From positions 1 to 33,197 of the forward strand of contig JAJDEC010000287.1 of assembly GCA_029259995.1 (NCBI GenBank): a DNA stretch of 33,197 nt, written 5' to 3'. Both the position numbers and the translations under genes were made by a program. Below, piece after piece: positions 3,597-28,211 of the stretch (position 1 is its first letter; every line of letters begins with the position of its first letter). Source of the DNA: Phycisphaerae bacterium. Lineage in GTDB: Bacteria; Planctomycetota; Phycisphaerae; UBA1845; UTPLA1. The notes below the pieces were generated by a model. That model searched no databases. It saw nothing but the letters and a program-made list of their open reading frames with translations, and was not told where the DNA came from.

Positions 3597-3616
3597 TGTC
3601 CCCCGAATGCACGGCG

Positions 3617-4054: not shown

Positions 4055-4057
4055 TGT

Positions 4058-4681
4058 TCAGAGCGCCAACTGTTCGACCATGCCGCCGACGGGATGCACG
4101 CGAACGGCCAGTCCGTTTGTCAGCTGCACTTCTCCATAACTCGTCAGAGCACCGCCGCTCGCGTCATAGGGGATGCCGAAGCTGTCGAATTCGATCTCAC
4201 TTGTGCTGTTGATCGAGACACCTGTGATCGACACGCCCGCAAAGGGCCCTGACCCGAAAACGACGGCCGACGTCGATTGATCCATCGGATGTGCGACGCC
4301 GACACGATTGGCCTTGCCGGGATTGTCTACATCCTCGATATAGAGCGTGTATTGATTGCCGCCGGAATCGATATCGACCCAGGTTCGCCGTCCGGACGCG
4401 AGCGCAAGGCGCTGCATGTATCGAATGTCGCCGGCCAGTCTCGCTCCGGCGGCGCTCGATCGCATTTCGCCGATGTACTGCAACGTCGGACCGCCGACGA
4501 ACACGGCCATGATGCCCAGAATGGAAATAACCGTCACCAACTCGATCAGCGTATATGCGGACCGCGTTGGCGACGGGTGCTTCGCGTACATGATGGTGTT
4601 CTGGATCGGTTTCGCCGCACGATGCGATCGTCGAGGCCGCGTCGCAAACATCGATCGCGTCATCGAATCGCCCCGGATCAC
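4058..4681 (-). CDS. Minor pseudopilin, GspH/FimT-like
   Basis: RSA|YTLIELVTVISILGIMAVFVGGPTL; actual start may be the internal Met at ~4591 (MYAKHPSPTRSAYTLIEL). Confidence 0.8.
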   Translation of the reverse strand: MIRGDSMTRSMFATRPRRSHRAAKPIQNTIMYAKHPSPTRSAYTLIELVTVISILGIMAVFVGGPTLQYIGEMRSSAAGARLAGDIRYMQRLALASGRRTWVDIDSGGNQYTLYIEDVDNPGKANRVGVAHPMDQSTSAVVFGSGPFAGVSITGVSINSTSEIEFDSFGIPYDASGGALTSYGEVQLTNGLAVRVHPVGGMVEQLAL

Positions 4682-4697
4682 GACCTAAGTTGAAATG

Positions 4698-4777
4698 CAG
4701 AATGATTCATTGAATGTGGCACAGGCCTCCGGCCTGTGGCGAACCGGCGAGTCGCCGGTTCCACAGAATGATTCATT
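4698..4777. repeat. Intergenic repeat element: two hairpins flanked by 14-bp direct repeats CAGAATGATTCATT
   Basis: Direct repeats 4698-4711 and 4764-4777; hairpin CACAGGCC-TCC-GGCCTGTG (4720-4738); hairpin GAACCGGCGA-G-TCGCCGGTTC (4741-4761). Confidence 0.85.
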
Positions 4778-4789
4778 CGTCCAACCCAC

Positions 4790-5221
4790 TTAGTATGCGT
4801 TCTCGCCGGCCGTGTTCGAGTTCGGCCAGATCTCGCCGGTCGCCACGTTGTATGACCAGCCGCCGGTTGTGCCCGTAACAGTGCCTTTCGACGTACCGGC
4901 AACAAGGTTGTTGCCCGTGCCGTCCGTGTCGTAAGGATTGTCCGGCACGCCGCCGTTCATAACGGAGTTGGCCGTCCCGAGAATCGTAATGCTCGGATAG
5001 GCGGCGTTGCCGCCCCCTGCCGGCGTTGCGGCGAACGCGTAGTAGTTCGCGACACCTGCCCGCAGCGCGCCCAGTGCGCCTTTACAGGCGGCCGAACGAG
5101 CATCGGCTCGATAGTCGAGGTAAACAGGCAGCGCGACCGCCGACAGAATACCGAGGATGACGATGACGGTGACCAGTTCGATCAACGTAAAGCCGCGTCG
5201 TTGTTGATTTCGATTTCGCAT
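4790..5221 (-). CDS. gspG: Major pseudopilin, GspG-like
   Basis: 143 aa; QQRRG|FTLIELVTVIVILGILSAVALPVYLDYRADAR; AGGAG ribosome-binding site upstream of the start. Confidence 0.85.
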   Translation of the reverse strand: MRNRNQQRRGFTLIELVTVIVILGILSAVALPVYLDYRADARSAACKGALGALRAGVANYYAFAATPAGGGNAAYPSITILGTANSVMNGGVPDNPYDTDGTGNNLVAGTSKGTVTGTTGGWSYNVATGEIWPNSNTAGENAY

Positions 5222-5290
5222 TTTCTGAAAACTCCTGTCGAAACACTCTTTCCCAAGAGAACGAATTTACTCACTTCAAGACATGCGCTT

Positions 5291-6514
5291 CTACGCAGTC
5301 CCGACTAGCTTCAGCAATTTCCACATCGGCATAAAGATGGCGAGGGCAAAGAAAAGAACGACGGCCGCGAGACTTACGACCATTATCGGCTCTACCAGCG
5401 TCGACATCATCTTGATGCTGCGCTGTGTCTGTTGCGCGTAGTACTTTCGGAGATAGTCGAATATCTGATCAGTGCGACCGGACTGTTCACCGATGGCGAG
5501 CATGCGCTTGACCAGGGGCGTCAGCCATCGGGTCCGGGAAAATGCATCCGTCAGAGATCGCCCGCCTTCGACGGCGCGCAGCATGCCGCGTACGTCGCTC
5601 CGCAGCGCTTCGTTGGTCATGCTGTCCGACGTCACACGCAACGCGTTCGTGATCGGAAGCGCTGCCCGGATCAGGAGATCGAGCAGCTCGATGAATCGGA
5701 CCATGTAGACACCGATCAGGAGATTGCCGAAGACCGGTAATCGAAGAAACTGCATATCGAGCCATGCGCGAACGGAACGGAAACTCAGTACGTGCCGCAT
5801 GGCGAAATAGGCACCCGTAAGTCCAATCGCGATGAGGATGTAGTGATTGATGATGGCGTCGCTGGTCCCGAGAAGGATCTTCGTCGGTAACGGAAGTTCG
5901 CTGTCGAATTTCGCGAAGAGTTCCTTGAATTGGGGCACAACGAACACAAGCAGAACGGCCGTCGCGAGCACCAACGTGATCACGACAAGCAGTGGATACG
6001 TCAGGGCCGATTTGATCTGGCTTCTGGTTTCGTTTTCCTGTTCGATATAACCCGCGAGGGAATTCATGACCTCCGGGACTTTTCCGGCGGATTCGCCCGC
6101 TGCAAGTGTCTTGGCGTAGATCTCCGGAAACATCTCCGGTTCCGCGTCGACGGCGTCCGCCAGTGTCCGACCACCTTCGATTCGACCGACGATACGGCCG
6201 ATTGCGGCGCGAAGAGGAGGAAATCCAGTCTGTTCGCCGACGGCCCGAAGTCCCGCAATGATCGGTATGCCGCTCTCCGCGACGGCCGCCATCTGGTGCG
6301 TAAAGTCGAGCAACGCGCGGCGCATCGCCTTTCCGCCCTTTGTCTTGCGAATCCGGGACGCCTTCCCCGCACCAGCCTTGGCGGGCGTGACGCGGATCGG
6401 CGTGCCGCCGCGGCTTTCAATCTTGGAAAACACGGCGCGCTCGTTGGCTGCGTCAAACGTTTCTTTGACACGTTTTCCGTTCGATGTCGCAAACTCTACA
6501 TGGAAAGTCGGCAC
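5291..6514 (-). CDS. gspF: Type II secretion / type IV pilus inner-membrane platform protein GspF/PilC
   Basis: 407 aa; GspF-type repeats (FTHQMAAVAESGIPIIAGLRAVGEQ; RFIELLDLLIRAALPITNALRV), C-terminal TM; downstream of gspE. Confidence 0.92.
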   Translation of the reverse strand: MPTFHVEFATSNGKRVKETFDAANERAVFSKIESRGGTPIRVTPAKAGAGKASRIRKTKGGKAMRRALLDFTHQMAAVAESGIPIIAGLRAVGEQTGFPPLRAAIGRIVGRIEGGRTLADAVDAEPEMFPEIYAKTLAAGESAGKVPEVMNSLAGYIEQENETRSQIKSALTYPLLVVITLVLATAVLLVFVVPQFKELFAKFDSELPLPTKILLGTSDAIINHYILIAIGLTGAYFAMRHVLSFRSVRAWLDMQFLRLPVFGNLLIGVYMVRFIELLDLLIRAALPITNALRVTSDSMTNEALRSDVRGMLRAVEGGRSLTDAFSRTRWLTPLVKRMLAIGEQSGRTDQIFDYLRKYYAQQTQRSIKMMSTLVEPIMVVSLAAVVLFFALAIFMPMWKLLKLVGTA

Positions 6515-6532
6515 GAATGCACTCCTCGATCG

Positions 6533-8200
6533 CTAGCATCGGCCCGCGATACGAACGATCTCTTCGACCGTTGTCAGTCCCTGGCGAATCTTGTTGACGC
6601 CGTCGTCGGCGAGAAATCGCATGCCCCGCTCCTTCGCAGCCGCACGAACGACTTCTGTCGGTTCACCGCGAACGATGAGTTCTCCATATTGGTCATTCAT
6701 CTCGAAAAGCTCGTACACGCCGATTCGCCCGACGTATCCGGTGCCAATACACCGGCGGCAGCCCTTGCCCTTCATCGGCTCGAAATCCAGCGCGTCGGGC
6801 TCGAGTCCGAGTGCCCGCAGATAATGCGCCGGCGGTGTATCCGGCGCCTGACACTCCGGACAAACCCGGCGACAAAGTCGCTGTGCCAGAACAGCAAGCA
6901 GGGACGACGAGATCAGATACTCCGCCACGCCGAGATCGCGGAATCGCGCGATCGCGCTGATGGAGTCGTTCGTGTGGACGGTACTCAGGAGCAAATGCCC
7001 CGTCAGCGCCGCCTGGACAGAGATTTGCGCCGTTTCGCGATCGCGGATTTCGCCGACCATGATGACGTCGGGATCCTGTCGCAACATCGATCGCAGGCCC
7101 GTCGCAAACGTGAGATTCGCTTCCGGATTGACCTGAACCTGGCGAATCGCGCTGGTGCGATACTCAACGGGATCTTCAATCGCGATGATATTCTTCTGCG
7201 GCGACGCGATGACCTTCATCGCGCCATACAAAGTTGTCGACTTCCCCGAGCCCGTTGGGCCCGAGACGAGAATCATCCCGTGTGCATTCGTGACGAGTCG
7301 CTGGAATCGCTCCAGAATCGCCTTGTCCATCCCCAATTCGCCAAGCGATATGGCTTCCGATTCGTTGCGAAGGATTCGAATGACGACGGCCTCGCCGAAA
7401 ATCGACGGAAGGATTGCAATTCGCAGAATGACTTCGGAGGAATCGCATATATGACTGATGGCCCCGTCCTGCGGCGCCCGCGATTGCGAGATGTCCAATC
7501 GGGCCAGCACCTTGATACGTGATACGAGGGCCCGATGCATACCCAGCGGCGGCGCGGCGATCTCGCGGAGGACGCCGTCCACACGAATACGCACGCGAAG
7601 CATCGACTCCGTCGGTTCAATGTGGATGTCCGACGCGCCCTGGCGAATCGACTCGTCGATCAAGTCATTGACGAGTCGGATGACCGGCTGCGATTCGTCG
7701 TCGACCTCTTCGTCGAAAGTGACTTCCATCAGTTGATCAGCGAGCGATGACGACTGGAGGTACTTGCTGGCGCCATAGGCGCGCTCGATCAGGCCGAGGA
7801 TGTCCTTGCGATTGCCGAGGACAACGTCGACTTCCTTCTTCGTCAGACGGCGAGCCTGGTCCACACCCGTGAGATCATTCGGATCCTCCATCACGAGCGT
7901 GATGAGATCGTCGAAATCAAACAACGGAAACATGATGTGACGACGCGCGAGATCCTCGGGAATGATCTCCGCGTTGTCGACCCGCGGAATGAAGTCGGAG
8001 ATATCGCAGAATGACATGCCGAGACGAAGCCCCTCGAGCGAGTGAAGCTGGCTGTCAGTCAGGACGCGCTTCGTTCGCAGGATGGTTCTAAGGTCCGTAT
8101 CCTGCTCAACGGCCAGCGACTCGAACTCCGCAAGACGCTTCGGCTCGATAATTTTCGCTTTTAGTATTTGATCGCGCAAGATGGCGGAGGGATCAAACAT
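6533..8200 (-). CDS. gspE: Type II secretion / type IV pilus assembly ATPase GspE/PilB
   Basis: 555 aa; Walker A GPTGSGKSTTLYG, Walker B region IMVGEIRDRETA, tetracysteine CRRVCPECQ...CRRCIGTGYVGRIGVYEL. Confidence 0.95.
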   Translation of the reverse strand: MFDPSAILRDQILKAKIIEPKRLAEFESLAVEQDTDLRTILRTKRVLTDSQLHSLEGLRLGMSFCDISDFIPRVDNAEIIPEDLARRHIMFPLFDFDDLITLVMEDPNDLTGVDQARRLTKKEVDVVLGNRKDILGLIERAYGASKYLQSSSLADQLMEVTFDEEVDDESQPVIRLVNDLIDESIRQGASDIHIEPTESMLRVRIRVDGVLREIAAPPLGMHRALVSRIKVLARLDISQSRAPQDGAISHICDSSEVILRIAILPSIFGEAVVIRILRNESEAISLGELGMDKAILERFQRLVTNAHGMILVSGPTGSGKSTTLYGAMKVIASPQKNIIAIEDPVEYRTSAIRQVQVNPEANLTFATGLRSMLRQDPDVIMVGEIRDRETAQISVQAALTGHLLLSTVHTNDSISAIARFRDLGVAEYLISSSLLAVLAQRLCRRVCPECQAPDTPPAHYLRALGLEPDALDFEPMKGKGCRRCIGTGYVGRIGVYELFEMNDQYGELIVRGEPTEVVRAAAKERGMRFLADDGVNKIRQGLTTVEEIVRIAGRC

Positions 8201-10106: not shown

Positions 10107-11513
10107 ATGAAGCTAAAGCTAGTTGTTTTTCTGCTCATCGTCGCCGCGTGCGTCGTCGGTTACATGACGATGACCGGCGGGGAAAACAAGCACGAGATCG
10201 AGTATTCCGAAGTGGTCAGTGGACCACTGACGTTTGCCGTGGAAACGCTTGGCACGCTGGAACCGCTGAGCGAAGTCATCGTGAGTTGCGAGGCGACAGG
10301 CAAGATCGTCGAGATCCTTCGCGACTTTGACGATCCCGTCGAGAAGGACGAAATCATCTGCCGCATCGATCCGGAATTGGTCGACGCCCAGCACGCCCAG
10401 TCCGTCGCGGCCCTCGCCACGGCAGAAAGCGCGGTCGCCGACGCGAAGATCGCATGCGAAGAGCAGCTTTCCCTGCTTCCAGTCCTCACGGAGCGAGCGG
10501 CCCAGGAGCTCGAGTCGGCAAAGTCCGCGCTTGAAATGGCGGAATTCAACTTCCAGCGACTGGATGATCTCTTTAATCGAAAGCAGGCGCCGAAGGCGGA
10601 GTGGCTCGCGACCAAGACGGCGTTCGATCAGGCAAAGGCCGCAGTGAAGATCGCACAAACGGCGTTGCAACAGGCGCAGAATAACGAACGCTTCATGCCG
10701 CCCCGGCTCGACCAGGCCCTCGTCAAGGCCAAATCCGACAAGGCGCGGGCACAGGCGCAGTTCGATACGACCAAGGCGCAGGTCGAGAAATGCGTTATCC
10801 GTTCTCCCATCGACGGTATCGTCCTGACGCGATTCCTCGACGTCGGAACCACTGTTAATCCGACGCTCCAGCCGCCGCCGCTCTTTCTGATCGCGCCGAG
10901 CCTCAGCCGCATGAAAGTCAGCGCTCGCGTCAGCGAGTCGGATATCGCCCACATCGAAGTCGGCCAGAAAGCCACATTTACCGTTGAGGGCAAACAACGA
11001 TCCAACTTCGAAGGCGCAATCCTTCAGAAACGCAACCAGCCCGAAATCATCCAGGGCGTCACGACGTACACCGTGATTCTCGAAGTACAGAATGACGCCA
11101 GGCGAACGCTGCTCCCGGGCATGAGCGTCAACGTCGTGATCGAATGTGTCCGCCACGACAATACGGAGAAGATCGCCAACAAGGCCCTGCGATTCCGTCC
11201 GCCGCTCGAACTCGAAGCACGCCGCAAACTTCTCGACGCGATGGAAGCGGCGTATCCGGCAGAACCGAAGAATTCCGACGGCACTCGCATCGACTATTGC
11301 CAGAAGTCTGCCGCATGGACGTTTGACGAGTTGAACAACACGTGGATGCCAGTTCCGCTGTGGACCGGCGTCACAGACAACTTTGAAACGCAGATCCTCG
11401 ATGGCGCCAAATCAGGCGACAAGTTCGTCCACAAATTCATCGAGAAAAGCTCCGCCGGTTTTAGTCTGAAGGAGGCGATCCGTCAGGCCAACCCGGCCGA
11501 ACGCAGTTTGTGA
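10107..11513 (+). CDS. HlyD/MacA-like periplasmic adaptor (membrane fusion protein)
   Basis: 468 aa; N-terminal TM, barrel-sandwich half (SCEATGKIVEILRDFDDPVEKDEIICRIDP), long coiled-coil, second half (CVIRSPIDGIVLTRFLDVGTTV); followed by ABC ATPase and permease. Confidence 0.92.
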   Translation: MKLKLVVFLLIVAACVVGYMTMTGGENKHEIEYSEVVSGPLTFAVETLGTLEPLSEVIVSCEATGKIVEILRDFDDPVEKDEIICRIDPELVDAQHAQSVAALATAESAVADAKIACEEQLSLLPVLTERAAQELESAKSALEMAEFNFQRLDDLFNRKQAPKAEWLATKTAFDQAKAAVKIAQTALQQAQNNERFMPPRLDQALVKAKSDKARAQAQFDTTKAQVEKCVIRSPIDGIVLTRFLDVGTTVNPTLQPPPLFLIAPSLSRMKVSARVSESDIAHIEVGQKATFTVEGKQRSNFEGAILQKRNQPEIIQGVTTYTVILEVQNDARRTLLPGMSVNVVIECVRHDNTEKIANKALRFRPPLELEARRKLLDAMEAAYPAEPKNSDGTRIDYCQKSAAWTFDELNNTWMPVPLWTGVTDNFETQILDGAKSGDKFVHKFIEKSSAGFSLKEAIRQANPAERSL

Positions 11514-11523
11514 TCCGACACGT

Positions 11524-12333
11524 ATGCCTGACGCCCCCGCCATTCATTCTGCCCCCATCGTCTCCACGATCGACGATCCGAGCCGGCCGATCACAGTCAA
11601 GCTGCGCGATCTGCACAAGACCTATGACTCCGGCGCCAACGCCGTCCACGCCGTTCGCGGCCTGAACGTCGACATTCCCGAGGGCCAGTACATCTCGATC
11701 ATGGGGGCCAGCGGTTCGGGCAAGTCGACGTTGCTCAACATTCTGGGCGCTTTGGATGTCCCATCGAAGGGCACGTATCACTTAGCCGGCAAGCTGACGA
11801 GCAAGCAGAGTCGTGACGAACTCGCAGCGCTGCGGAACGAGTACATCGGTTTCATCTTTCAGAACTTCAACCTGCTGACGCGCAGCACGGCCGTCGAAAA
11901 TGTCGAATTGCCGATGGTTTACGCCGGCGTGCCGACGCGAAAACGCCGCGCAGCCGCCCTCGCCGCCCTCGATAAAGTCGGCCTCGCCGATCGCGCAAAC
12001 CACCTGCCCTCGGAAATGTCCGGCGGCCAGCAGCAGCGCGTCGCCATCGCCCGATCCCTCGTCAATACGCCGCGCGTCCTGCTCGCCGATGAACCAACAG
12101 GCAATCTCGATACCCACACGAGCGGCGAGATCATGAAGATTCTCGACGAACTGCATACGAAAGACGGCCTGACGATCATCATCGTCACGCACGATCCCGG
12201 CGTCGCCGAATTCACGGAACGCGTTGTCGTCCTGCGCGACGGTCACATCATCGCGGATCAGGCAACACCGCGTTGCGGCGGACCGGCCGTGCCCGATGTT
12301 CGCGCCCTGTCCATGTCCATACCGGAGGCGTAA
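11524..12333 (+). CDS. MacB/LolD-type ABC transporter ATP-binding protein
   Basis: Walker A GASGSGKST, signature MSGGQQQRVAIA, Walker B VLLADEPTG. Confidence 0.95.
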   Translation: MPDAPAIHSAPIVSTIDDPSRPITVKLRDLHKTYDSGANAVHAVRGLNVDIPEGQYISIMGASGSGKSTLLNILGALDVPSKGTYHLAGKLTSKQSRDELAALRNEYIGFIFQNFNLLTRSTAVENVELPMVYAGVPTRKRRAAALAALDKVGLADRANHLPSEMSGGQQQRVAIARSLVNTPRVLLADEPTGNLDTHTSGEIMKILDELHTKDGLTIIIVTHDPGVAEFTERVVVLRDGHIIADQATPRCGGPAVPDVRALSMSIPEA

Positions 12334-12336
12334 GCG

Positions 12337-13560
12337 TTGTTCGCACTGTGGATCGAATGCTTCAAGATGGGACTTCGCGAGCTGTGGCGGCATCGCCTGC
12401 GCAGCTTCCTCACGATGATCGGCATGATCATGGGCGTGAGTGTCGTCATCATCTGCGTCAGCGTCGTCCAGGGCGTCAAGGACTCGCTGATCGGCGATAT
12501 CCGCAAGGCCGGCAAGAACATGATGTTCGTCTTCACGGAGGACACGCGCAAGGGCATCGGCACCATCGGCATCCAGGCCAACACGAATCTCAGCCGCGAC
12601 GACGCCGAAGCCATCGAAATCGAATGCGACGGCGTCTCGATGGCCAGCGGCGTGCAAGGCAGCAACGTCCTCATCGTCAGCGATACGAATACGGCGACCG
12701 TGCCAATTACTGGCGCCGATCACAAGTACACGGCCATCCGTAACTGGGGCATCGAACAGGGCCGCGATCTCGAACCGTTCGACTTGATCGCTTCGCGCCG
12801 CGTCTGCCTCATCGGTCAGACGACGATGCGCGAATTGTTCGGTGATCGGAACGCGATCAATCGAACCGTGCGCATCGGTCGAATCAATCTGAAAATCGTC
12901 GGCGTCCTCGAACCCAAGGGCGTTAACCCACTCGGCATGGACGAGGACAACGCACTGATCGTGCCGCTTCCGATCATGCTTCGCGACATCATGAATCGCC
13001 GCGAGCCCGACGCCATCCTCTGCTCAGCCAAGAGCGATGACGATGTTGAGTTCGCCGTACAGCAGATCACGCAGCTCCTTCGCCAGCGCCACAAACTAGG
13101 TGACGCGGACCGGAATGACTTTCGTGTTTCCACGTTGAAGGAAAAGGAAGAGCAGGCACGAACCATCAGTAATCAGATGACGCTGTTGATGTTTTTCCTT
13201 GCGCTCGTCAGCCTCATGGTCGGCGGCGTCGGCATCATGAACATCATGCTCGTGTCCGTCACGGAACGAACTCGAGAGATCGGCATTCGCATGGCGATCG
13301 GCGCATCAACCAAGGCCATCAATCGGCAGTTTCTGATCGAAGCCGCCGTCATCTCCACGGCGGGCGGAACTGTGGGCATCGTGCTCGGCGTGTCCGGCGC
13401 CGCGTATATTTCCAGCGCGATCGGTGTCCAGCCATTGATGTCCCCGACGATTGTCGCCATCGCCTTCGTCTTTTCGGCCGGCGTCGGCGTATTGTTCGGG
13501 CTGCTTCCGGCCCGTCGAGCGGCCGGGCTGAATCCGATCGACGCACTACGGCACGACTGA
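12337..13560 (+). CDS. MacB/FtsX-type ABC transporter permease
   Basis: 407 aa with TTG start; MacB periplasmic domain, C-terminal FtsX block (GGVGIMNIMLVSVTERTREIGIRMAIGA). Confidence 0.93.
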   Translation: MFALWIECFKMGLRELWRHRLRSFLTMIGMIMGVSVVIICVSVVQGVKDSLIGDIRKAGKNMMFVFTEDTRKGIGTIGIQANTNLSRDDAEAIEIECDGVSMASGVQGSNVLIVSDTNTATVPITGADHKYTAIRNWGIEQGRDLEPFDLIASRRVCLIGQTTMRELFGDRNAINRTVRIGRINLKIVGVLEPKGVNPLGMDEDNALIVPLPIMLRDIMNRREPDAILCSAKSDDDVEFAVQQITQLLRQRHKLGDADRNDFRVSTLKEKEEQARTISNQMTLLMFFLALVSLMVGGVGIMNIMLVSVTERTREIGIRMAIGASTKAINRQFLIEAAVISTAGGTVGIVLGVSGAAYISSAIGVQPLMSPTIVAIAFVFSAGVGVLFGLLPARRAAGLNPIDALRHD

Positions 13561-17424: not shown

Positions 17425-18678
17425 TCAGATGGCCAGTACGGCACGAACCAATTGCTCCATGTTCGTCCGCTCATCGAACATGCGTCGCGCACGATCCAGC
17501 GCCCCCGCCGCACATCGATCGTACAACACGCGATCGCCGCGCATCCGCTGTATCGCCGCCGCCAGCGCTTTGACATCATCCGGCGGAACGACCAGACCGC
17601 ACTCGCCATCGACCACGGCTTCGGACATTCCGCCGACATCCGTCACAATGCACGGAATACCGCTCGCCAGGGCTTCAATCACGCTGTTCGACATGGACTC
17701 GCGCCGCGATGCATGGACATACAAATCGACATTTGCATAAATCGCATCGCGATCGGCGACGAATCCGGCCAGACGAACGCGATCGCCGAGCCCTGACTCG
17801 GCGGCGCGTGACGCCAGCGCTTCTCGATCCGGCCCGTCGCCGTAATACGTCAACTCGATCTTGTGATCATCGCGAGCGACGCATCCAAACGCATCCAGCA
17901 GCAGATCGGCGCCCTTGGCCTTTGTCACGCGACCGACCGTCGCGATGCGATGCGTCGTCTCTCGTGGGAAACCTGACTGGCGCGGACAGGCACCATTGTG
18001 AATCACATGACGTTTGTCACGATCGAAGGCGTATTCTCGCTCATACGATTCCGCGACGCGCTCACTGTTGTAGATCAATGTGTGGGAAAGCCGCGCGGGA
18101 AATCGATGACGCCAGATCGCACGACGACGCCAGAATCCGGGGCGCGGCACAACGCCGGCAATGCGGCCACCATGCGGCGGCGGCACTTCCTTCGGCGGCT
18201 GCCGCAAGCTGGAGACAACGCGCAAGCCGGCGGCACGGGCCGCAAAGACGGACGCGAGAAATGCCGAACCACTTGCCTGCTGCACGAAGAGCGCCGTGTC
18301 GGCGCCCGTTGCCCGAAACCATCGCATTCGGTCGACAACCAGTCCCGGACTCAGGCGACGATCGCCGGAAACGACCTCGTCAAGCCAGTCCGTCTTTTCG
18401 ACCGTGAGTTGATTCGGATGATACGCCTCAAGGAGTTGATGATAGATCGTCGAACCCGAGTAACCGACATGAACCTGAGCGCCGGCGTCGATCATGGCCG
18501 GAATAACCGTCTGAATGTGCTTCTCCGCGCCCCCCGTGTAGGTGACGCCGGCCACTTCAACATGATGCACGGCGAGAAGGACGACGCGGCGGCCTTCCGC
18601 GCCCGAGATGCGGGCGAATCGACGGTTCTCCCGCATCTCGCCTGGCGATTGTTCGATGTCCCTGATCTCCGTCGTCAT
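17425..18678 (-). CDS. Glycosyltransferase family 4-like protein
   Basis: 417 aa; HVEVAGVTYTGGAEKHI N-terminus; ATVGRVTKAKGADLLLDAF; EALASGIPCIVTDVGGMSEAVVDGECGLVVPPDD. Confidence 0.9.
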   Translation of the reverse strand: MTTEIRDIEQSPGEMRENRRFARISGAEGRRVVLLAVHHVEVAGVTYTGGAEKHIQTVIPAMIDAGAQVHVGYSGSTIYHQLLEAYHPNQLTVEKTDWLDEVVSGDRRLSPGLVVDRMRWFRATGADTALFVQQASGSAFLASVFAARAAGLRVVSSLRQPPKEVPPPHGGRIAGVVPRPGFWRRRAIWRHRFPARLSHTLIYNSERVAESYEREYAFDRDKRHVIHNGACPRQSGFPRETTHRIATVGRVTKAKGADLLLDAFGCVARDDHKIELTYYGDGPDREALASRAAESGLGDRVRLAGFVADRDAIYANVDLYVHASRRESMSNSVIEALASGIPCIVTDVGGMSEAVVDGECGLVVPPDDVKALAAAIQRMRGDRVLYDRCAAGALDRARRMFDERTNMEQLVRAVLAI

Positions 18679-18899
18679 GCAGACGCCCTGCCATCGCGTT
18701 CAAGGAAATCCACTCTGTCGTACGCCGGGCCCATGATACGGACATTCTTCCGCCAATGCATTGGGAATCGACGTTGGAGAATTGGGATTGCAATCGCATC
18801 GAGTATCCAACTCGCGGGGCCGTGGGCCGACGGCGCACGATTGCGCTGGCGAATTGAGATGTCGCCCGCGCGGAACAACGTCTTCAAACCCGGCACCAC
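18675..18899 (-). CDS. Possible small ORF between the large secreted protein and the glycosyltransferase
   Basis: 74 aa, GTG start 12 nt downstream of the preceding stop; stop overlaps the glycosyltransferase start as ATGA (18675-18678). Confidence 0.35.
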   Translation of the reverse strand: MVPGLKTLFRAGDISIRQRNRAPSAHGPASWILDAIAIPILQRRFPMHWRKNVRIMGPAYDRVDFLERDGRASA

Positions 18900-18911
18900 G
18901 GAAAAACCAGA

Positions 18912-21521
18912 TCAACCACCGAGTGTTGTCGGCAACATCGGTTCTGTCACACCTATGAATTCCGAATTGGGCACAAAGTCACCCAATGGGGCGAGAAGAT
19001 CTTCTTCGTCAATCGGCCATGTGGATTCATCACCCAGGCAGACGTCCAGCACAATCAGGTCGTGCACGCAGCCATTGCCTGGAACCTCGATTCGACCGAT
19101 CAGTCGATCGATTGGATTCGTATCCGCACAATTCGCCATCGCCTTGTCCCCTTCGCGCAGGCATCGCACAACGGCTTCCACACCTTCGGGCCGCACGAAC
19201 AGCAACTGGCGACGCCGCTCGCCCGAATCAACGTGGATGCCGAGACACCATTCCCGATGCCAATCCAACAAGTTGTTGAACACGACATCGCGATCAGTCT
19301 CTGAGGACCATTTCGCTGGAGCGGATCGATACGTGGCAGTGTCTTTGCGGGCTGGAATCGTGACGGCGATGTATCCGGTCCTGGCGCCGACGTCCGACGT
19401 CACGTGGATGCCGCTTGCACCTGTCGCGGCCGCCAAATCGAGCAGCGGCAACTTGTATCGCCAATCATCGCGCACATCGTCCCAATTAAACATGCGGCGA
19501 CCGTCCGTCTGGAGATTGTCCGTTGCGATAACGCCACTCTGCGGTCGCTTGTTGAGCGATGCGAGACCGCCGATCGGCTTCCGCGCCGTCGTCAGCAGCG
19601 ACGCCCTGAACGTTGGCGCGACGCCCGACGCCGCCACGCTCGTCACGATTTCAAGCGTATTCCAGCCTCGCAGGAGCCGGAGTCCCGTGTATGCGGATGT
19701 CTCTTGCCTGGTATCATCGGAGTCGGTGTTCAGATCGCCGCGAATGACGCGCCCATTGACGCGCACGCCAAGCGCTTGCTGCTGGTCCGTTCGGAGCTGC
19801 ACAATTTGATCGCCGGGAACATAGACCCAGCACGTGGCCCGAACGCGCTGATTCGGCCGGCTCCCGGAAACTGATTCCAGGGAAATGCGTGATGAATCCG
19901 ATACGACTGCCTGCCCCACGTCGCCTTCCGCAATCGGCATTTGCTGGAATGCACCGCCCGACTCGGAAGGTTCATACGGTCCGTCAATCCGCCACGATCT
20001 CAAGAAAGATTCCTCCAGCGGTAATTCGGCAACGTCGAGTCCCGCATACTCGTTGCGAGGCAGTCGATATCGCAAGGCCGAACGGCAGGAGAATCCGATG
20101 TGCGGACTGGGAGCGATCCCGGCGGTCACGGCGTCAACGGCTGCGGGTAATGTCGGGCTTGCGCCGGATTGCCGGCCCGCATCACTCATCATCCGATAGA
20201 CGATCTCAACAAAGTCGGACCAGCGTGCTCCGTGAGTCGTGCTCGCGGCAGTCGTCCCCTTTGGTCCCTGCCCGACGGGCGAAACATGAACATCAGTACC
20301 AACAGTTCCAACGGTTGAGGGTCGGATTGTTATGACGCCGTCAAACCAACCATCTCGATCCAACCTGGCCGCTCTGGGTCCCCAAGCGCCGTTCGGATAC
20401 TGGACGAAATCCGTGTCTTCGTCGTTCTTCAAGATTCGAATCGAAATGTCCAATCGAATCGCGCCTGACGTCGCCGCGGCGATCATTTTCCTGGTGATCG
20501 TCAGATGGTCGATCAGTCCGGCGAGTTCCTCATCTGAAAGCACCTGATCGCCGGCGGGCTGCTGGATAAGCGCGAGGACATCAAATCGTGTTACATCACC
20601 TGCGGGAGCGGACAGCTCGCACCGATCGATGTAGTCAATCAATCCGATCAATTCGCTGCCGATGATTTCAAAACATTCGGCGGCGCGAAACTGGGCGTCT
20701 TCATGGGGCGGATGAATCATCCGGCACTCTTCGAACTCGTCGTACGCGGGACGATAGAGACCGCAGAATTGAAGGTACAAACCCCATCGATAGTGCTCGA
20801 GAAAATTGCCGGACAGTCTGGATATGCGTCGAAGGTACTCGATCCGTCGAATCGATCGCCGCGCGAAACGCGCGACATCGACGTCGTCGCTGGATCGCAG
20901 TTTCCCGAACGCGTCAACAGCTGCGTCCTGCCGTCCGGCGAACTCGTCGATCATCGCGCCGAAATAGTCGCGCGCCGGCTGTTGCGTTGCCGCCCTGGCA
21001 AACTCCGCCAACGGGCCATTGAGACTCGTGCGATTGGGACCTCCGACCAACCTCGGATCGGGCATTCCCAACACGGCGACGACAACCATGTCGGCGTTCG
21101 ATTTCATGTGCAGCTTTGCCCGCACGCGCCCCGCTGCGAATTCCGGATTGGCTCGAATCGTATCCAGATTGATGACGTACGCCGTTGCTTCCGCCGAAAG
21201 GACCCAGTCCGGAAGCGCTTTGCCGCCGATTTCAATCGATAGCGTTGCCGGAACCTGATTGCCAGCCGCCGGCGGATTCGCGTCCTCGGCCGCCGCCTGC
21301 GGATTACTTCGCGGCTGTGCAGCGATGAAGACGAGCGGCTGAGGCGTCTGGCCCTGCGACGCGGACGACAATCGAAAGGACAGCTCCTGCACGCCGTTTT
21401 TTATCGTCGCATTGCCAAGCGGCACGACGGTGATTTCAGGATTCGGCGCGGCGCGGAGCGAGGATGTCAGAGCAATGACAATCGCTACGGCTGCAATAAT
21501 GGATCTGGGCGAGTGCTTCAT
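18912..21521 (-). CDS. Large exported protein of unknown function with TPR-like N-terminal part and jelly-roll-like region
   Basis: Start placed at MKHSPRSIIAAVAIVIALTSSLRAAPNPE (signal peptide) inside the 921-aa ORF; PGDQIVQLRTDQQQALGVRVNG...LLRGWNTLEIVTSVA resembles PA14/galactose-binding-type beta-sandwiches. Confidence 0.7.
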   Translation of the reverse strand: MKHSPRSIIAAVAIVIALTSSLRAAPNPEITVVPLGNATIKNGVQELSFRLSSASQGQTPQPLVFIAAQPRSNPQAAAEDANPPAAGNQVPATLSIEIGGKALPDWVLSAEATAYVINLDTIRANPEFAAGRVRAKLHMKSNADMVVVAVLGMPDPRLVGGPNRTSLNGPLAEFARAATQQPARDYFGAMIDEFAGRQDAAVDAFGKLRSSDDVDVARFARRSIRRIEYLRRISRLSGNFLEHYRWGLYLQFCGLYRPAYDEFEECRMIHPPHEDAQFRAAECFEIIGSELIGLIDYIDRCELSAPAGDVTRFDVLALIQQPAGDQVLSDEELAGLIDHLTITRKMIAAATSGAIRLDISIRILKNDEDTDFVQYPNGAWGPRAARLDRDGWFDGVITIRPSTVGTVGTDVHVSPVGQGPKGTTAASTTHGARWSDFVEIVYRMMSDAGRQSGASPTLPAAVDAVTAGIAPSPHIGFSCRSALRYRLPRNEYAGLDVAELPLEESFLRSWRIDGPYEPSESGGAFQQMPIAEGDVGQAVVSDSSRISLESVSGSRPNQRVRATCWVYVPGDQIVQLRTDQQQALGVRVNGRVIRGDLNTDSDDTRQETSAYTGLRLLRGWNTLEIVTSVAASGVAPTFRASLLTTARKPIGGLASLNKRPQSGVIATDNLQTDGRRMFNWDDVRDDWRYKLPLLDLAAATGASGIHVTSDVGARTGYIAVTIPARKDTATYRSAPAKWSSETDRDVVFNNLLDWHREWCLGIHVDSGERRRQLLFVRPEGVEAVVRCLREGDKAMANCADTNPIDRLIGRIEVPGNGCVHDLIVLDVCLGDESTWPIDEEDLLAPLGDFVPNSEFIGVTEPMLPTTLGG

Positions 21522-21677
21522 GTCATCCGTTTCGTCGATTCGCATCCTGTCTCTCGCTTGGTGAGGCGTTCGAATCAAGCCGCGGATTCGAACATTTGAT
21601 CTGAATTCTCGCCACATGCGCGTCCATATGCAACTCATCACGCACGATGCCTTGCAAAAGAAGTGTAACTCTTGCAT

Positions 21678-22544
21678 TCAAGGAATAGATGAATCGTCCC
21701 CACGAGGCGGCGCGGCCGAATTCTCATCCATCCACTGAAAATCTGCGTTGGTCCCTGAAGTTCGCGGCCTCTCGAATGACGCACTCGTCGCCGCTGTGGC
21801 GCGGCTCACGCGTCGACGAACGATGACGGAAAGGAAAAACAAGACGACGACGATTCCTGCCATCGCCGTCAGCAGATCGCGTCCGTCCAGACCGCTCGAC
21901 TGCGGAACAGCGCGATCCGGTGTTTCGAGTATCTCAACAGAACGGGCCACAAACAGCGGTCCCGCTCCTTCTTCGCCCGATTCCGTTCGAAAGGATCGGA
22001 TCTTGATGAAGAAACCCCTGACGCGGATCAACGATCGTTTCTTTGTTCTGGGCGCGGGATCGACAAGCACCAGCGTTGCGATGGCGTTGCTGCCGGCGAC
22101 GCCTATATCCCATTGTCGAAGGCGACCGAGCTCTGGACGCGTCGCGATGTCGTATGCAGGCTGTTCTAGCAGGAATCGTCCCTCGATACAGACGGGCTGT
22201 CCGCGGTAATCGCTGGGACGCTCCATCAGGTATTGCCATGGAACAATGTCGTTCTCGTTGCAGTCACTCTCCGCCAGAGCATCAGGGTTCTTGCGGAGAA
22301 ATTGACAGAACCAGTAAAATCCTTCGTCATCGAATGCGAACGTTCCATCCTTGACGCCGGAGAGCAGCACGACGCCCCCCCGTGTGTCGAGTGATGGATC
22401 GGCAGACGGCGCATCGCGTTCGGGCGGCGCGGCCACTAAGTCAGTACTCAATAGGAGGACAATCGCAAACAACGAGAGTCGCAACCAAGATATTCGATCA
22501 TGTGCAATGAAGGACATCATGTTCAGTGTCGATCGATTGGTCAT
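21678..22544 (-). CDS. Hypothetical exported protein with C-terminal TM segment
   Basis: Start MTNRSTLNMMSFIAHDRISWLRLSLFAIVLLLSTDLVAAPP at 22544; C-terminal TM DLLTAMAGIVVVLFFLSVIVRRRV; TGATG overlap with upstream gene. Confidence 0.75.
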   Translation of the reverse strand: MTNRSTLNMMSFIAHDRISWLRLSLFAIVLLLSTDLVAAPPERDAPSADPSLDTRGGVVLLSGVKDGTFAFDDEGFYWFCQFLRKNPDALAESDCNENDIVPWQYLMERPSDYRGQPVCIEGRFLLEQPAYDIATRPELGRLRQWDIGVAGSNAIATLVLVDPAPRTKKRSLIRVRGFFIKIRSFRTESGEEGAGPLFVARSVEILETPDRAVPQSSGLDGRDLLTAMAGIVVVLFFLSVIVRRRVSRATAATSASFERPRTSGTNADFQWMDENSAAPPRGDDSSIP

Positions 22545-25228
22545 CACTTCGAAGCTCGTTGGGCACGGGCAAGCAGATCCATGAGCTGCCCCTGCCACGG
22601 CGGTCCGCCCAATCGCGGCTCCCACGCCCGCTCGCTTTCGATGCCTGCGACGACTTCCGCCGCCTTGCCGTGACGCAGCTGATGCTTCAGCCAGTGATAG
22701 CGTGCTTCCCAGTAGACCTTCGGTGCATTGGCGCGCAGCGCCGGATCGGACAGGAGTTTTGCCCAGTGTTGTTCGGCTTCATCGGCCAGGCGTTCCGCTT
22801 CAGTCCCCGTCGCCGTCCCGATGAGCTGCTCGTGAATTCTCGCCGCGCGTCGGAGAAAAGTCCCGTTGTTGGGGGACGCACTGATCAGTGAATCGAGCAG
22901 CGTCTTGGCTTCGGGAAGCTGGTCCGCCGAAATCAGGGTATCGATCAGCGCCAATTGGGCGACGGTCACGTGTTTCCGATGCTCCGGTCGCTGTTCAAGC
23001 CACTCGATGAGATACTGAATCGTCGGCACGGTCTGTTCGGCGAGCCGCCTCGCCTCTTCGCGCCGGCCGAATCGACGAAGCTTTTCGATTTCTGCCTGCA
23101 TGTCGGCGGCAAGCGATATGAGAACGCCACCGAGGTCCTCGTCGATTCCCTGGCGAATGTACTGCTCCAGGGCTCGGTTCGCCTCCGAAGTCCGGGCCGT
23201 GGATTGATAACATCGGATACGTAATCCGAGTTGACGGGCATCGGGCTCCATGGTTTCGATCATGCCCAGGCACGCATCGAAATCGCGCAGGTCGTCGCCG
23301 GCATGAATCGACGCTGCCGCCAGGATGGCATCGCGTTGCCATCGTTTCAGCGTCTTGCGATCGGGTCCGCCGCCACGCTGCAGGGCGCGTCCTTCGCGCA
23401 TGGCATCCAGTTCGGCTTCGATCCGTTCGGCCAGGAATTTCCAGACATCGATGGCGGCTCGGGCCATGCGCTGCCTCGTGACGATCGTGGCGCTCTTGGG
23501 AACCTGTTCGTAGACGCGCTGCCGGCAACGGGCGGCATTGCGGCGCGCTTCCCAGTAGTTCGGCGATGCTTCGCGGACCTCGTTGTAGGACTCGATGGCC
23601 GTTTCGTACTGGCCGGCTTCTTCAAGAGACAGGGCCGCGACCCAGTTGGCTTCCGCGGCGAGTTCCGATTTGGGCATGCGCGCGTAGAGGAGCCGCGCCG
23701 CTACGGCCAAAGTCACATAGTCCTCGACGGCCTGCGTTTCGGCGGCAATCTGCTTCCAGGTCCGATATGCATAGTCATAGACGTGCGTCGCCACGATTTT
23801 CTCCGCGGGGCGCTGTGCCTCTTCCAGGAAGATCGCGGCAGCTTCTCGCAGCTTGGCCATTTGAAACAGGCAGACGGCCTTATTGAACCTGGCAAGATGG
23901 CGCTCCTCGTCGGCCGGATCGCGGGCGAGCAACTGATCCCACGCCGTGAGGGCTCTTTCAAAATCCCGATCGGCCATCCATCGGCCGGCTGCGATTCCCA
24001 ATTCGACAGTCGTCAACTCCGTCAGATTGCGTTCACTGCCGGCGATCTGGTTGAGGTAGACCTGAACGATCTCCGACCATATGCCGCCCTGGCGAGCAAG
24101 CTTGACGAACTCGGATTCGGCTCTCTTCTCGAGTTGAATGCGCGACGCATCTCCCTTGGGCATGCGCCTTGCCTCAACGACATAAGAGTACGCATGAATC
24201 AACGGGCCGAGTCGGATGTAGAATGCGGACTCGGCGTCGGCTGTCTCGTTTGCCAGATCGGCCAGGGCCCGTCGACCCGACGCGAACTGGCTGTCGGCAA
24301 TGAACGTCCGGGCCATCTCGTATTGTGCGCGGGACGTCATGCCGGCGGGCTGCGTCGATTGAATAATGCGGGCGAACTGATCGATCGCTTCATCGAACTG
24401 ACTGGACTCGCGTTTTGCAATCCCGAATCCCAACTGGGCGTTGTAACGAATCGACGGATCCCTCGCGTCCATCATCACGTCTTCGAACGATGATCGCGCG
24501 TCGGCGATCCAGTTTCCGCGTTTCGGCGTGCCGGGTTCGCTGAGCATGGCGCGATAAATGGCGCACCAGGCGCCGTTGAGCATTTTTCGTTGCAGCGTTG
24601 GACCGATTTTTCCGGCGAGACCGTACAGCAGATACGTTTCGTCGTTGTCGATACGAGAACGTATGTCCATGTCCTCGAGAACTTCGCCAGCGAGCGCGTA
24701 GAGACCGGCGGTCTCTTCCAGAATCGCGAGCGCGTGAGGGCGATCAAAGGACAGACCGCTCGATATCTCGAATTGATCGATATCGGGCCCCACCGCTCGA
24801 CGCAGCAAAAGATCCGCGAGTTCGATCCTCCACTGTGCCGCTCGGAACCTGCCCGGCTCGCCGTTCTTCTCGGCGACGTCGGCGGCGGCTCGTATGGAAT
24901 CTCGATAGGCGTCGGTCGCCCGCTCGATCAATCGGGCCCTGACGACGGCATCCTGCTCATCCGCAACGGCGCGCGCGGCCGCGCGAGCCAGGTGGATCCG
25001 GAGGAGCGGCGAACGATCGGCGATCAGGGGCTCGATCAATTCGGGCATGCCGCGGTCAACGAGCCCGGCAATCAGGGCCCGTTCTTTGCGACTGAGTTTC
25101 TCGTCGGACGCGAGCAGACGTGCGGGGGAGACAGTTGCCAGGATGAGCGCGCCCGTCAGGAGACCGACGAGCGAGCTGAATTGATCGCTGTTGCTTCGTT
25201 TCATGTGCATTCGCGGGTCGCTGGCCAT
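22544..25228 (-). CDS. Exported TPR/helical-repeat protein
   Basis: Start MASDPRMHMKRSNSDQFSSLVGLLTGALILATVSPARLLASDEK at 25228 (TGATG overlap with exbD); helical-repeat segments such as WDQLLARDPADEERHLARFNKAVCLFQMAKLREAAAIF and EEAGQYETAIESYNEVREASPNYWEARRNAARC. Confidence 0.8.
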   Translation of the reverse strand: MASDPRMHMKRSNSDQFSSLVGLLTGALILATVSPARLLASDEKLSRKERALIAGLVDRGMPELIEPLIADRSPLLRIHLARAAARAVADEQDAVVRARLIERATDAYRDSIRAAADVAEKNGEPGRFRAAQWRIELADLLLRRAVGPDIDQFEISSGLSFDRPHALAILEETAGLYALAGEVLEDMDIRSRIDNDETYLLYGLAGKIGPTLQRKMLNGAWCAIYRAMLSEPGTPKRGNWIADARSSFEDVMMDARDPSIRYNAQLGFGIAKRESSQFDEAIDQFARIIQSTQPAGMTSRAQYEMARTFIADSQFASGRRALADLANETADAESAFYIRLGPLIHAYSYVVEARRMPKGDASRIQLEKRAESEFVKLARQGGIWSEIVQVYLNQIAGSERNLTELTTVELGIAAGRWMADRDFERALTAWDQLLARDPADEERHLARFNKAVCLFQMAKLREAAAIFLEEAQRPAEKIVATHVYDYAYRTWKQIAAETQAVEDYVTLAVAARLLYARMPKSELAAEANWVAALSLEEAGQYETAIESYNEVREASPNYWEARRNAARCRQRVYEQVPKSATIVTRQRMARAAIDVWKFLAERIEAELDAMREGRALQRGGGPDRKTLKRWQRDAILAAASIHAGDDLRDFDACLGMIETMEPDARQLGLRIRCYQSTARTSEANRALEQYIRQGIDEDLGGVLISLAADMQAEIEKLRRFGRREEARRLAEQTVPTIQYLIEWLEQRPEHRKHVTVAQLALIDTLISADQLPEAKTLLDSLISASPNNGTFLRRAARIHEQLIGTATGTEAERLADEAEQHWAKLLSDPALRANAPKVYWEARYHWLKHQLRHGKAAEVVAGIESERAWEPRLGGPPWQGQLMDLLARAQRASK

Positions 25229-25680
25229 CAGCCATCGCCGCCCACGGAAAATTGTATGTTGGCGAATCCGGCTCCGACACAAGCATCCATCGCAGAAATA
25301 ACGTGTTGATACTCGACGTTCGGGCTTGCTTCGATCAGGACGCGGCCATCGGGATTTGCCCCTTCGTCCTGCTTCTTCTTGAGAATCGCTCGCAACGTCG
25401 CGAACGAGCCGTCGGGAAGCTGCGTGTCCATGATGAATATCTGACAGCCATGCCCGTCTTCTGTTTCGAGCAGCGCAATGTGTATCGTCGGAATAATCGT
25501 GACGCTTGCGCCGCCGCCGGGGCCGACCTGGGAAGGCAGCTCCGTCGGGAGCGATCCTTCCTCGACGGCGAGCCGCGCGCCGAGCATGAAGAATACGAGA
25601 ATGACCATGACGACGTCGACCATCGGCGCGAGATTGGGGGCATACGAGCGGCCTGGCGGTATGTCGCGTTTGAAATTCAA
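25228..25680 (-). CDS. exbD: ExbD/TolR family biopolymer transport protein (copy 1)
   Basis: 150 aa, TTG start; NLAPMVDVVMVILVFFMLGARLA TM with conserved Asp; C-terminal VLIEASPNVEYQHVISAMDACVGAGFANIQF. Confidence 0.88.
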   Translation of the reverse strand: MNFKRDIPPGRSYAPNLAPMVDVVMVILVFFMLGARLAVEEGSLPTELPSQVGPGGGASVTIIPTIHIALLETEDGHGCQIFIMDTQLPDGSFATLRAILKKKQDEGANPDGRVLIEASPNVEYQHVISAMDACVGAGFANIQFSVGGDG

Positions 25681-26120
25681 AGTCCATCCGCTCCTGATGA
25701 GCGCGGCACGGCACTGAATGTCACTTTCGTGACGCCGATGTCGCCGCAGCCGACCATGACTTGCTGGACATATTCAAACGGAAGCGTGCGATCCGCCCGA
25801 ATAATACAATTGACATCGGGCTGAATTCGCTTTTCTTCCGTCAGTCGATTGAGCACTTCATTCAAGGACATCGCCCTTTCCTCGACGATGAACTCGACGC
25901 CCTCCTTCTTGTCCTCCCGCGCATCGCGAACATTGACGACGAAACGATTGCCCAGATCCTGCCGGTCCTTTTCCTGCGCGGAGCGGGCGACGGGAAGATC
26001 GATGCGCGTGCTGCTCTCCCGCTCAACCATTCTCGTCGATAACAGGAAGAAGATCAGCAGACTCATCGTGACGTCGACGACAGGCGCCAGATTCACACGA
26101 ATCGGCGTCTCATCAGGCAC
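25677..26120 (-). CDS. exbD: ExbD/TolR family biopolymer transport protein (copy 2)
   Basis: 147 aa from GTG; NLAPVVDVTMSLLIFFLLSTRM TM with conserved Asp; CIIRADRTLPFEYVQQVMVGCGDIGVTKVTFSA; TTGA overlap with copy 1. Confidence 0.88.
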   Translation of the reverse strand: MPDETPIRVNLAPVVDVTMSLLIFFLLSTRMVERESSTRIDLPVARSAQEKDRQDLGNRFVVNVRDAREDKKEGVEFIVEERAMSLNEVLNRLTEEKRIQPDVNCIIRADRTLPFEYVQQVMVGCGDIGVTKVTFSAVPRSSGADGL

Positions 26121-26166
26121 ACTGGAAAGACCTTTGCGGCGAATGGCACGACTCCAAGATCGGCAG

Positions 26167-26184
26167 GCCGCCGAATCCGGCGGC
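26167..26184. repeat. Perfect inverted repeat GCCGCCG-AATC-CGGCGGC between exbB and exbD
   Basis: 7-bp arms, 4-nt loop, read directly. Confidence 0.8.
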
Positions 26185-26207
26185 TTACGTCATTCCTTCT
26201 TACGGCG

Positions 26208-27035
26208 TCACGCACGATGCGGCGCTGCGGACGATTCTCGTGCATCCGCGCCGCCCGGTGCACCCATGCCGCCCATGGCCGGCGTCGGCGCAGGGCGGAA
26301 ATACTCCAGGACGTCGATGACCGACGCGTGGGCCGCAACTGTCATGGAATCGACACGATTTCGACAAACGCCGAAACAGCCGAGCGCCAGGATGGCGACG
26401 ATCAGTCCCATGAGCGTGCTGACGAGCGCGATGCTGATTCCGCCTGCCAGTTCTTCCGGGCCGTAGGCGCCCTGGGTTTCCTGCATTTTCTTGAACGCCT
26501 CGATCATGCCGGCGACGGTTCCGAGCAAGCCAAGGAGCGGTGCGATATTTCCGATGATGTTGAGGTATTCGACACGACGGAAGAGCCGGCTCCGCCAGGC
26601 GCCGGCGCGCTCTTCGACGGCCTCCTGCATGGCGTCGAAGCCATGGCGGCCGTGGCGAAGGCCGATCGTCAGCACGTCGCCGAACATCGTTCGGCTGCCG
26701 GCGACGCGTTCGACGCACTCCTTGAATTTTCTCAATTCGATCAATTCTCGTGTGGCCCTGGTTTCTGATTCGTTGACCATCTTCGCCCAACGAATCGTCC
26801 AGAAATGCTCGATGATGAGGCCGACAACGATGATTGACAGGACGGTAATAATCGGGCCGATCCAACCATATCCCTGAATGACGACATCGAGGAACGACGT
26901 GACTTTGACGGGTTCATCCGTCGGCGAAGACAATATTGGATCGTCTTGCGCAGAGAGGGGCACCGCGACAGTGATGATGGATGCGGCAAGAACGGTCAGT
27001 AAGATGATTGTTCTGCGTCGAGCTGTCGAATTCAT
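26208..27035 (-). CDS. exbB: ExbB/TolQ/MotA family proton channel protein with N-terminal signal peptide
   Basis: 275 aa; VEYLNIIGNIAPLLGLLGTVAGMIEAFKKM and GGISIALVSTLMGLIVAILAL; signal peptide MNSTARRRTIILLTVLAASIITVAVPLSAQ. Confidence 0.92.
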   Translation of the reverse strand: MNSTARRRTIILLTVLAASIITVAVPLSAQDDPILSSPTDEPVKVTSFLDVVIQGYGWIGPIITVLSIIVVGLIIEHFWTIRWAKMVNESETRATRELIELRKFKECVERVAGSRTMFGDVLTIGLRHGRHGFDAMQEAVEERAGAWRSRLFRRVEYLNIIGNIAPLLGLLGTVAGMIEAFKKMQETQGAYGPEELAGGISIALVSTLMGLIVAILALGCFGVCRNRVDSMTVAAHASVIDVLEYFRPAPTPAMGGMGAPGGADARESSAAPHRA

Positions 27036-27071
27036 TCGTGTTCTCTGGGTTTCGTGATTCGGCTTGTCACA

Positions 27072-28211
27072 CTAATAGCGCCGGGCCCGGATGTCATCAA
27101 TCGTCACATGTTTGTAGGTTCCGCGGTTCTCGCGGGCAATTCTCTCGAGCACAATTTCCTGTCCGGATGCTTCTCGGTAATCCTCCAGGAACAGGATCGT
27201 ATTGATGATGGTCTGCTTGCTTCGATTCTTCGCGCGAATCGCCTTCAGGACTTCGTCATTCTGCTGATCAAAATCGCCGTCGGACAAAAGGAACATCACA
27301 TCCGGCGCCGGCTTGAACGACAAGCCCTGCTGAATCGCGGGAATCGGATTGGTTCGGCCCTCGGGAGAGACATTGTCAATCGCCTCGAACGCGTCGCGTT
27401 TGTTTTCGATCGTGGCTTTTCTCGGTGTGGGCGCCCACATTTCGGGCTTGCGTTCGGCAAACCAGAGGACGTTGAAACGCTGATCCTCGGAAAGTTCACC
27501 GATTGACTTCTTTAGTTCGGTCTTGAGCATTGCGATCGAGTCCATCATGGAGCCGCTTCGATCCATCACATACACGACGGAATCGGCCCGCTGTCCGGCG
27601 CCAACGCCCCAGAGGCTTCCGACGGGACCGCCGCCGGCGGCCGAGCCTTCGCCGAGGCCCGAACCGCTGTCGCCGCCCTGTCCGCCGCCAAAAAGCTGCG
27701 TACCGACGACGTCGCCGCGCTGAAGCGACTCGACGGGCACATCGCGCAGCCCCGCGTTACCGAGGTCGACTGCGGACATTTGGACAGAACCTTCCTCAGC
27801 GAGCAACGATGCAAGATCTCGGATTCGCTCTGACGCGTCGGAGGAATCGGGGCGATCGACATCGGCGTCGCCGGCGAAATTGAATCCGCCTTGCGGACCG
27901 GATCGATCGGCGTGAACGAGTTGGGCCGTGAAGTCGCCGGGAATGCCATAGGTCCCTGTGCCGACGGCCCACGTGATGAGGCTCAGGAGAATCAGCAGCA
28001 ATGCGTGAACCAGGAGGCTGAGACTGAGCGGCCCGAGACTATTGAGGATTCGCTCGCCCAGGGACTTCTTAGGTTCCGTCCGGGATGGTACGGGCCTTCG
28101 GAGTGGCGCGCGGGGAGCCGGCCGGTTGACAGCTTTGGAGACGGCGGGCGGTTCTAATTCAATTCCGGGGCGTTCGCCGACCAAAGGCGGGTACTCCTGC
28201 TGGTGGCGCAT
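27072..28211 (-). CDS. Membrane-anchored von Willebrand factor A domain protein with TonB-like N-terminal anchor
   Basis: 379 aa; Pro-rich cytoplasmic N-terminus, TM LGPLSLSLLVHALLLILLSLITWAV, Gly-rich linker, vWA MIDAS VVYVMDRSGSMMDS. Confidence 0.88.
   Translation of the reverse strand: MRHQQEYPPLVGERPGIELEPPAVSKAVNRPAPRAPLRRPVPSRTEPKKSLGERILNSLGPLSLSLLVHALLLILLSLITWAVGTGTYGIPGDFTAQLVHADRSGPQGGFNFAGDADVDRPDSSDASERIRDLASLLAEEGSVQMSAVDLGNAGLRDVPVESLQRGDVVGTQLFGGGQGGDSGSGLGEGSAAGGGPVGSLWGVGAGQRADSVVYVMDRSGSMMDSIAMLKTELKKSIGELSEDQRFNVLWFAERKPEMWAPTPRKATIENKRDAFEAIDNVSPEGRTNPIPAIQQGLSFKPAPDVMFLLSDGDFDQQNDEVLKAIRAKNRSKQTIINTILFLEDYREASGQEIVLERIARENRGTYKHVTIDDIRARRY

Follow-up and report, generated by a model that had tools for sequence, protein, structure and literature searches.

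The operon described here very probably encodes a proton-powered motor of the inner membrane whose force arm is a TonB-like protein that ends in a vWA domain. It lies in a window of 33,197 nucleotides, by which we mean the whole stretch of DNA that was analysed, corresponding to contig C209 of a draft genome (5.09 Mb in 688 contigs, 85% complete) of a Phycisphaerae bacterium. The operon is a single run of genes on the minus strand, encoding the vWA protein, ExbB, ExbD-A, ExbD-B, a large exported TPR protein, an OB-fold/TM protein, a secreted TPR and PA14-like protein and a GT4 glycosyltransferase (Table 1). A preliminary description of this DNA had placed these eight genes on one strand, and all of them are indeed present. 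The junction overlaps that it listed are real as well, namely the four bases shared by ExbD-A and ExbD-B (25677-25680) and the stop/start overlaps at 25228 and at 22544; a gap of about 157 bases (21521-21678) lies between the TM protein gene and the secreted protein gene. The interval proposed for the operon, 18675-28211, holds the core genes and leaves out the GT4 gene, at whose first codon it starts. The relatives named below are planctomycete MAGs (Phycisphaerae, Planctomycetota), and statements about whole genomes rest on searches of genomes.

Table 1. Genes of the operon and of its divergent neighbour, with positions in the window and the evidence for each assignment.
Feature	Coordinates	Strand	Evidence
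Candidate vWA force transducer, 379 aa	27072-28211	-	Pfam VWA_3 7.5e-11; invariant S65, H69
ExbB/TolQ-like motor subunit, 275 aa	26208-27035	-	MotA_ExbB 1e-26; PDB ExbB and TolQ chains
ExbD-A (TolR-like), 147 aa	25677-26120	-	ExbD 3.6e-18; ExbD tree clade A
ExbD-B (TolR-like), 150 aa, TTG start	25228-25680	-	ExbD 8.5e-19; ExbD tree clade B
Large exported TPR protein, ~894 aa with signal peptide	22544-25228	-	TPR_19 5e-12; synteny
Exported OB-fold/TM protein, ~288 aa, family-specific	21678-22544	-	AlphaFold2 and Foldseek; alignment
Secreted protein, 869 aa from likely ATG, family-specific	18912-21521	-	AlphaFold2 and Foldseek
GT4 glycosyltransferase	17425-18678	-	Glyco_trans_1_4 1.7e-36; synteny in ~8 family loci
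Divergently transcribed TPR protein, 401 aa	28558-29763	+	TPR_16 1.5e-7; cluster c8 in 9 loci

The window contains neither a tRNA nor an Rfam RNA. Elsewhere in it, genes for type IV pili or type II secretion occupy 773-8200 on the minus strand, including a PilM-like protein (a weak match just below the cut-off), a T2SSF membrane protein (5291-6514) and a T2SSE ATPase with an MshEN domain (6533-8200). An HlyD-type membrane-fusion protein and a MacB/FtsX-type permease, encoded on the plus strand at 10107-13560, form a MacAB-like export system.

Relatives of the vWA protein are found in 58 of 61 near genomes. Across the phylum, a profile search at E 1e-15 finds them in 216 of 294 genomes, and outside the order two per genome are frequent. 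For the contig scan, a profile built from 18 diverse vWA proteins lacked a sufficiently conserved stretch, and a family-level profile from 15 loci took its place. Homologues of the window genes were mapped by iterated HMMs in 40 neighbourhoods of the same order, which together with the window make 41 loci. In 33 of the 41, window included, the core genes stand in the order vWA-ExbB-ExbD-ExbD-TPR; the gene cluster is therefore more than a chance arrangement and, being spread across the order, is not limited to close relatives. Among the eight exceptions, two (L052, L070) are interrupted by contig ends, two (L058, L062) keep ExbB and both ExbDs without a TPR match, and four (L051, L064, L065, L076) encode a vWA protein with a full TM helix and no ExbB or ExbD in the adjoining genes. 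Some anchored vWA relatives in later loci (L091, L092) also have no neighbouring ExbB/ExbD, and the pairing of vWA protein and motor, strong as it is, is thus not required at every locus. Several families of the order have an additional exported TPR gene of about 380 aa between vWA and ExbB (cluster c4; e.g. L056:4916-6034). This gene is missing from the family of the window, where a different TPR gene runs divergently; the latter is partly conserved beside the operon, and its membership is putative.

The topology of the vWA protein is like that of TonB and TolA, with a short cytoplasmic N-terminus, one TM helix at about residues 62-80, a Gly-rich linker of about 130 residues and a C-terminal domain. 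Residues S65, H69, L76 and T80 of the helix fit the SHLS motif for docking on the motor, which in E. coli has the spacing S16/H20/L27/S31. In an alignment of 18 diverse relatives, no TM residue other than S65 and H69 is invariant. Ser-x3-His is present in all 39 vWA relatives with a full TM helix, whereas among the other TM segments of these loci 6 of 667 have it. The remaining positions fit the SHLS spacing too, with Leu at +7 in 18 of the 39 helices and Ser or Thr at +11 in 22. As a control, the secreted, unanchored vWA relatives of Isosphaerales (L094-L096) have neither the motif nor a nearby ExbB or ExbD. The docking of TonB and TolA on their motors through the Ser and His of this helix is established (PMC12204202). 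In two families (L053, L054), a CxxC-type stretch resembling a zinc ribbon precedes the helix in the cytoplasmic N-terminus.

The linker has 99-142 residues (median 131), with 18% Gly and 6.5% Pro. Mean beta propensity peaks about 24 residues past the His, where the motor box of TonB sits, a signal that is weak per sequence (12 of 36, compared with a mean of 4.2 and a maximum of 14 after shuffling). The MIDAS of the vWA domain is intact in the window protein, with D217, S219 and S221 as DxSxS, plus D311. One family (L071, L073, L075) keeps DxSxS and has GxAD in place of GxTx, and because the MIDAS Thr is lost there, metal-dependent binding by the domain may not be universal.

The ExbB protein matches PDB structures of ExbB and TolQ, and its lumen Thr motifs are kept in 34 of 36 and 35 of 36 relatives under a strict pattern. 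ExbB and the two ExbDs obtain their best NCBIfam scores with the TolQ and TolR models, below the cut-off. In the ExbD tree, the copies separate into two deep clades, A and B, with 100/100 support; since each gene position falls within its own clade, the pair is, by this phylogeny, an ancient duplication. The proton-binding Asp is kept in every ExbD copy with a readable helix in both clades, and the two proteins may most simply be read as a heterodimeric rotor. The Zorya defence system (ZorA) was considered and rejected, as it produced a single ExbB match at E 0.0023 and nothing else.

In the machine that we propose, and whose coupling we hold to be likely, an ExbB pentamer would enclose two ExbDs, probably a copy each of ExbD-A and ExbD-B, and would form the motor with them. 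The single TM helix of the vWA protein would dock on the side of ExbB via Ser65 and His69, as in TonB and TolA, and the linker would cross the periplasm, so that the vWA domain could grip a target in the periplasm or the outer membrane, where TonB or TolA would use its C-terminal domain. The large periplasmic TPR protein, a homologue of which is encoded in 34 of the 41 neighbourhoods, would be the most likely direct partner or adaptor of the vWA protein. The preliminary description had regarded both this protein and the secreted one as periplasmic partners; synteny supports the former, and the secreted and OB-fold/TM proteins, because they are specific to the family of the window, are probably accessory at best.

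These two proteins have no Pfam domain in their frames (921 aa for the secreted protein and 315 aa for the TM protein) and were assigned from structure models, with low whole-chain TM-scores, since single domains alone match. The AlphaFold2 model of the OB-fold/TM protein has Foldseek matches to OB-folds (best E 1.7e-5), and a C-terminal TM helix is predicted. The D-F-x-W of its cytoplasmic tail, invariant across the family, is possibly a docking motif. The secreted protein, modelled with a pLDDT of 77, is predicted to combine TPR-like helices with a PA14-like beta sandwich, and its model has partial Foldseek matches to PA14, GH3-PA14 and TPR; its full-length relatives are found only within the same family. 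The PA14 fold frequently binds carbohydrate. The GT4 gene follows the operon in the family, and its part in the machine is uncertain. The run of the family operon into these three genes is what would be expected if the machine served the assembly of surface polysaccharide or of an S-layer-like envelope, with the GT4 and the PA14-like protein as pathway-specific parts. Such an assignment, which concerns the task of the machine and not its coupling, is unlikely, as the downstream genes occur only in this family and cannot define the core function because other core-bearing families are without them.

A second possible task is gliding, by a focal-adhesion motor akin to AglRQS-Glt of Myxococcus xanthus, which would be compatible with coupling through the vWA protein and has been suggested by Williams-Jones et al. 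(PMC12204202). The myxobacterial M1 cluster likewise encodes one ExbB-like protein (AglR) and two different ExbD-like proteins (AglQ, AglS), GltG, the transducer, carries a TonB-like motif and interacts with AglR, and TPR proteins are involved (PMC3169522), a likeness drawn from shared motor folds. GltG differs from the transducer of the window in not being a vWA protein. Against a gliding role stand the lack of any recognised Glt protein in the family scans of the window and the near-universal occurrence of the system across the order, more than would be expected of a gliding trait; we consider this role quite unlikely. The near-universal occurrence, together with the failure to detect TonB or TolA, leads us to guess that a housekeeping function in the envelope, Tol-like or at the surface layer, is likelier than gliding.

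The absence of other transducers bears on the coupling itself. Profile searches found TonB_C and TonB_2 domains in none of 15 family genomes, and the window proteins contain no match to TonB_C. Neither a TolA-like domain nor TolB or Pal is encoded beside the operon; TolB_N exceeds the cut-off in 1 of the 15 genomes, and PD40 repeats, being widespread in every one of these genomes, were uninformative as a marker of TolB. Receptors with a Plug domain are present in 2 of 16 family genomes and were not found in the window's own genome, which is 85% complete. The statement that the window encodes no TonB, TolA or receptor, made in the preliminary description, therefore stands, and the profiles revealed no canonical TonB or TolA in the 15 genomes that could use the stator; a divergent TolA is possible, since the absence rests on profiles. 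Other MotA/ExbB loci of the same genome comprise one TPR-ExbB-ExbD-beta-propeller cluster and less clear ones without TonB. The former (L078, G000:C321, 2970-10898) encodes a 1073-aa TPR protein, ExbB, one ExbD and a 1072-aa PD40 beta-propeller protein, and no transducer was recognised in it.

It could nevertheless be argued that the motor powers another, unlinked or unrecognised TonB or TolA and that the vWA and TPR proteins are merely co-transcribed with it, for example as chaperone or quality-control proteins like those of Bat operons. The combination of TM-anchored vWA proteins with TPR proteins has a precedent in BatABCDE, where BatA and BatB (vWA) are paired with BatC (TPR), and at a few loci of the order vWA and TPR genes occur without ExbB/ExbD (L064; L076, where the TPR gene is small). 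Bat operons, to our knowledge, are without ExbB and ExbD, and family searches of the window gave no match to Bat families. The invariance of the motor-binding Ser and His, the order-wide linkage and the lack of TonB_C and TonB_2 make mere co-transcription very unlikely; the same three observations support the earlier proposal that the stator drives the vWA protein instead of TonB or TolA.

Compared with ExbB-ExbD-TonB, the window system shares the motor proteins, the Ser-x3-His helix and a single-span transducer with a periplasmic linker, but its transducer ends in a vWA domain instead of the TonB C-terminal domain, it has two distinct ExbDs, and Plug receptors are rare in its family. With Tol-Pal it shares the best-scoring motor models, below cut-off as they are, and a putative periplasmic TPR partner that resembles CpoB, whereas the other components of Tol-Pal are not encoded beside it.

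The closest likeness is to the 'vWA force transducers' that Williams-Jones et al. described from PVC bacteria in 2025 (PMC12204202, Fig. 4a,b; Tichowtungia family). These proteins have an SHLS helix, their genes stand together with a TPR gene, one tolQ and two tolR, they have been reported in Planctomycetes, and their function is unknown according to the authors (PMC12204202). The idea of a stator-driven vWA protein at such loci was therefore already published, together with AF3 models of other members, not of the window's, that place the TM helix on the motor via the same His (PMC12204202). Judged by sequence, the window operon belongs to this first class of the paper and is not a new kind of system, because, apart from the motor box, whose signal is weak per sequence, it has the defining features that can be tested in this way. 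These are an N-terminal SHLS-type helix, a linker (disordered or Pro-rich and of about 100 residues in the published class), a C-terminal vWA domain, and, in the neighbouring genes, a TPR protein, one TolQ-like protein and two heterologous TolR-like proteins. It differs from the published description in that its linker is Gly-rich and not Pro-rich, in that its vWA gene comes first in the transcribed order rather than downstream of TPR, tolQ and tolR, and in that three more genes follow in the window's family. The pairing of a membrane-anchored vWA protein with an adjacent ExbB gene would also fit the second class of the same paper (TPH-vWA), in which the protein's own helix acts as the rotor inside the ExbB pentamer and replaces ExbD, but that class has no tolR/exbD neighbours and no SHLS residues and carries a helix Asp, whereas the window operon has two ExbDs and an invariant S-x3-H, and the ExbD-replacing class is excluded, or at least extremely improbable, because none of the 39 helices holds an Asp or Glu. 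What the present analysis adds to that work are the statistics on motif and synteny, the absence of TonB and TolA from the profile searches, the ExbD split and the family-specific downstream module.

A bolder version of the preferred reading, in which the motor acts through the vWA protein, is that this protein is the only inner-membrane force transducer of the family, that it has replaced both TonB and TolA, and that it fulfils an essential housekeeping role at the outer membrane via the large TPR protein by MIDAS-dependent gripping. We hold this version to be rather doubtful. We know of no case in bacteria in which MIDAS-dependent gripping serves to transfer force across the envelope. The main text of the transposon papers on P. 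limnophila and V. spinosum does not mention the genes of the operon.

What is known about the energising of the outer membrane by the proton gradient comes mostly from Ton and Tol. The value of the present results lies in confirmation, in sharper predictions (S65/H69, the MIDAS and the ExbD heterodimer) and in naming the TPR protein as a candidate partner. If the reading is true, the same motor and docking motif would work with another gripping domain, and the head of the transducer would thus be interchangeable. Additionally, the planctomycetes, whose envelope biology is poorly understood, would gain a defined energised system.
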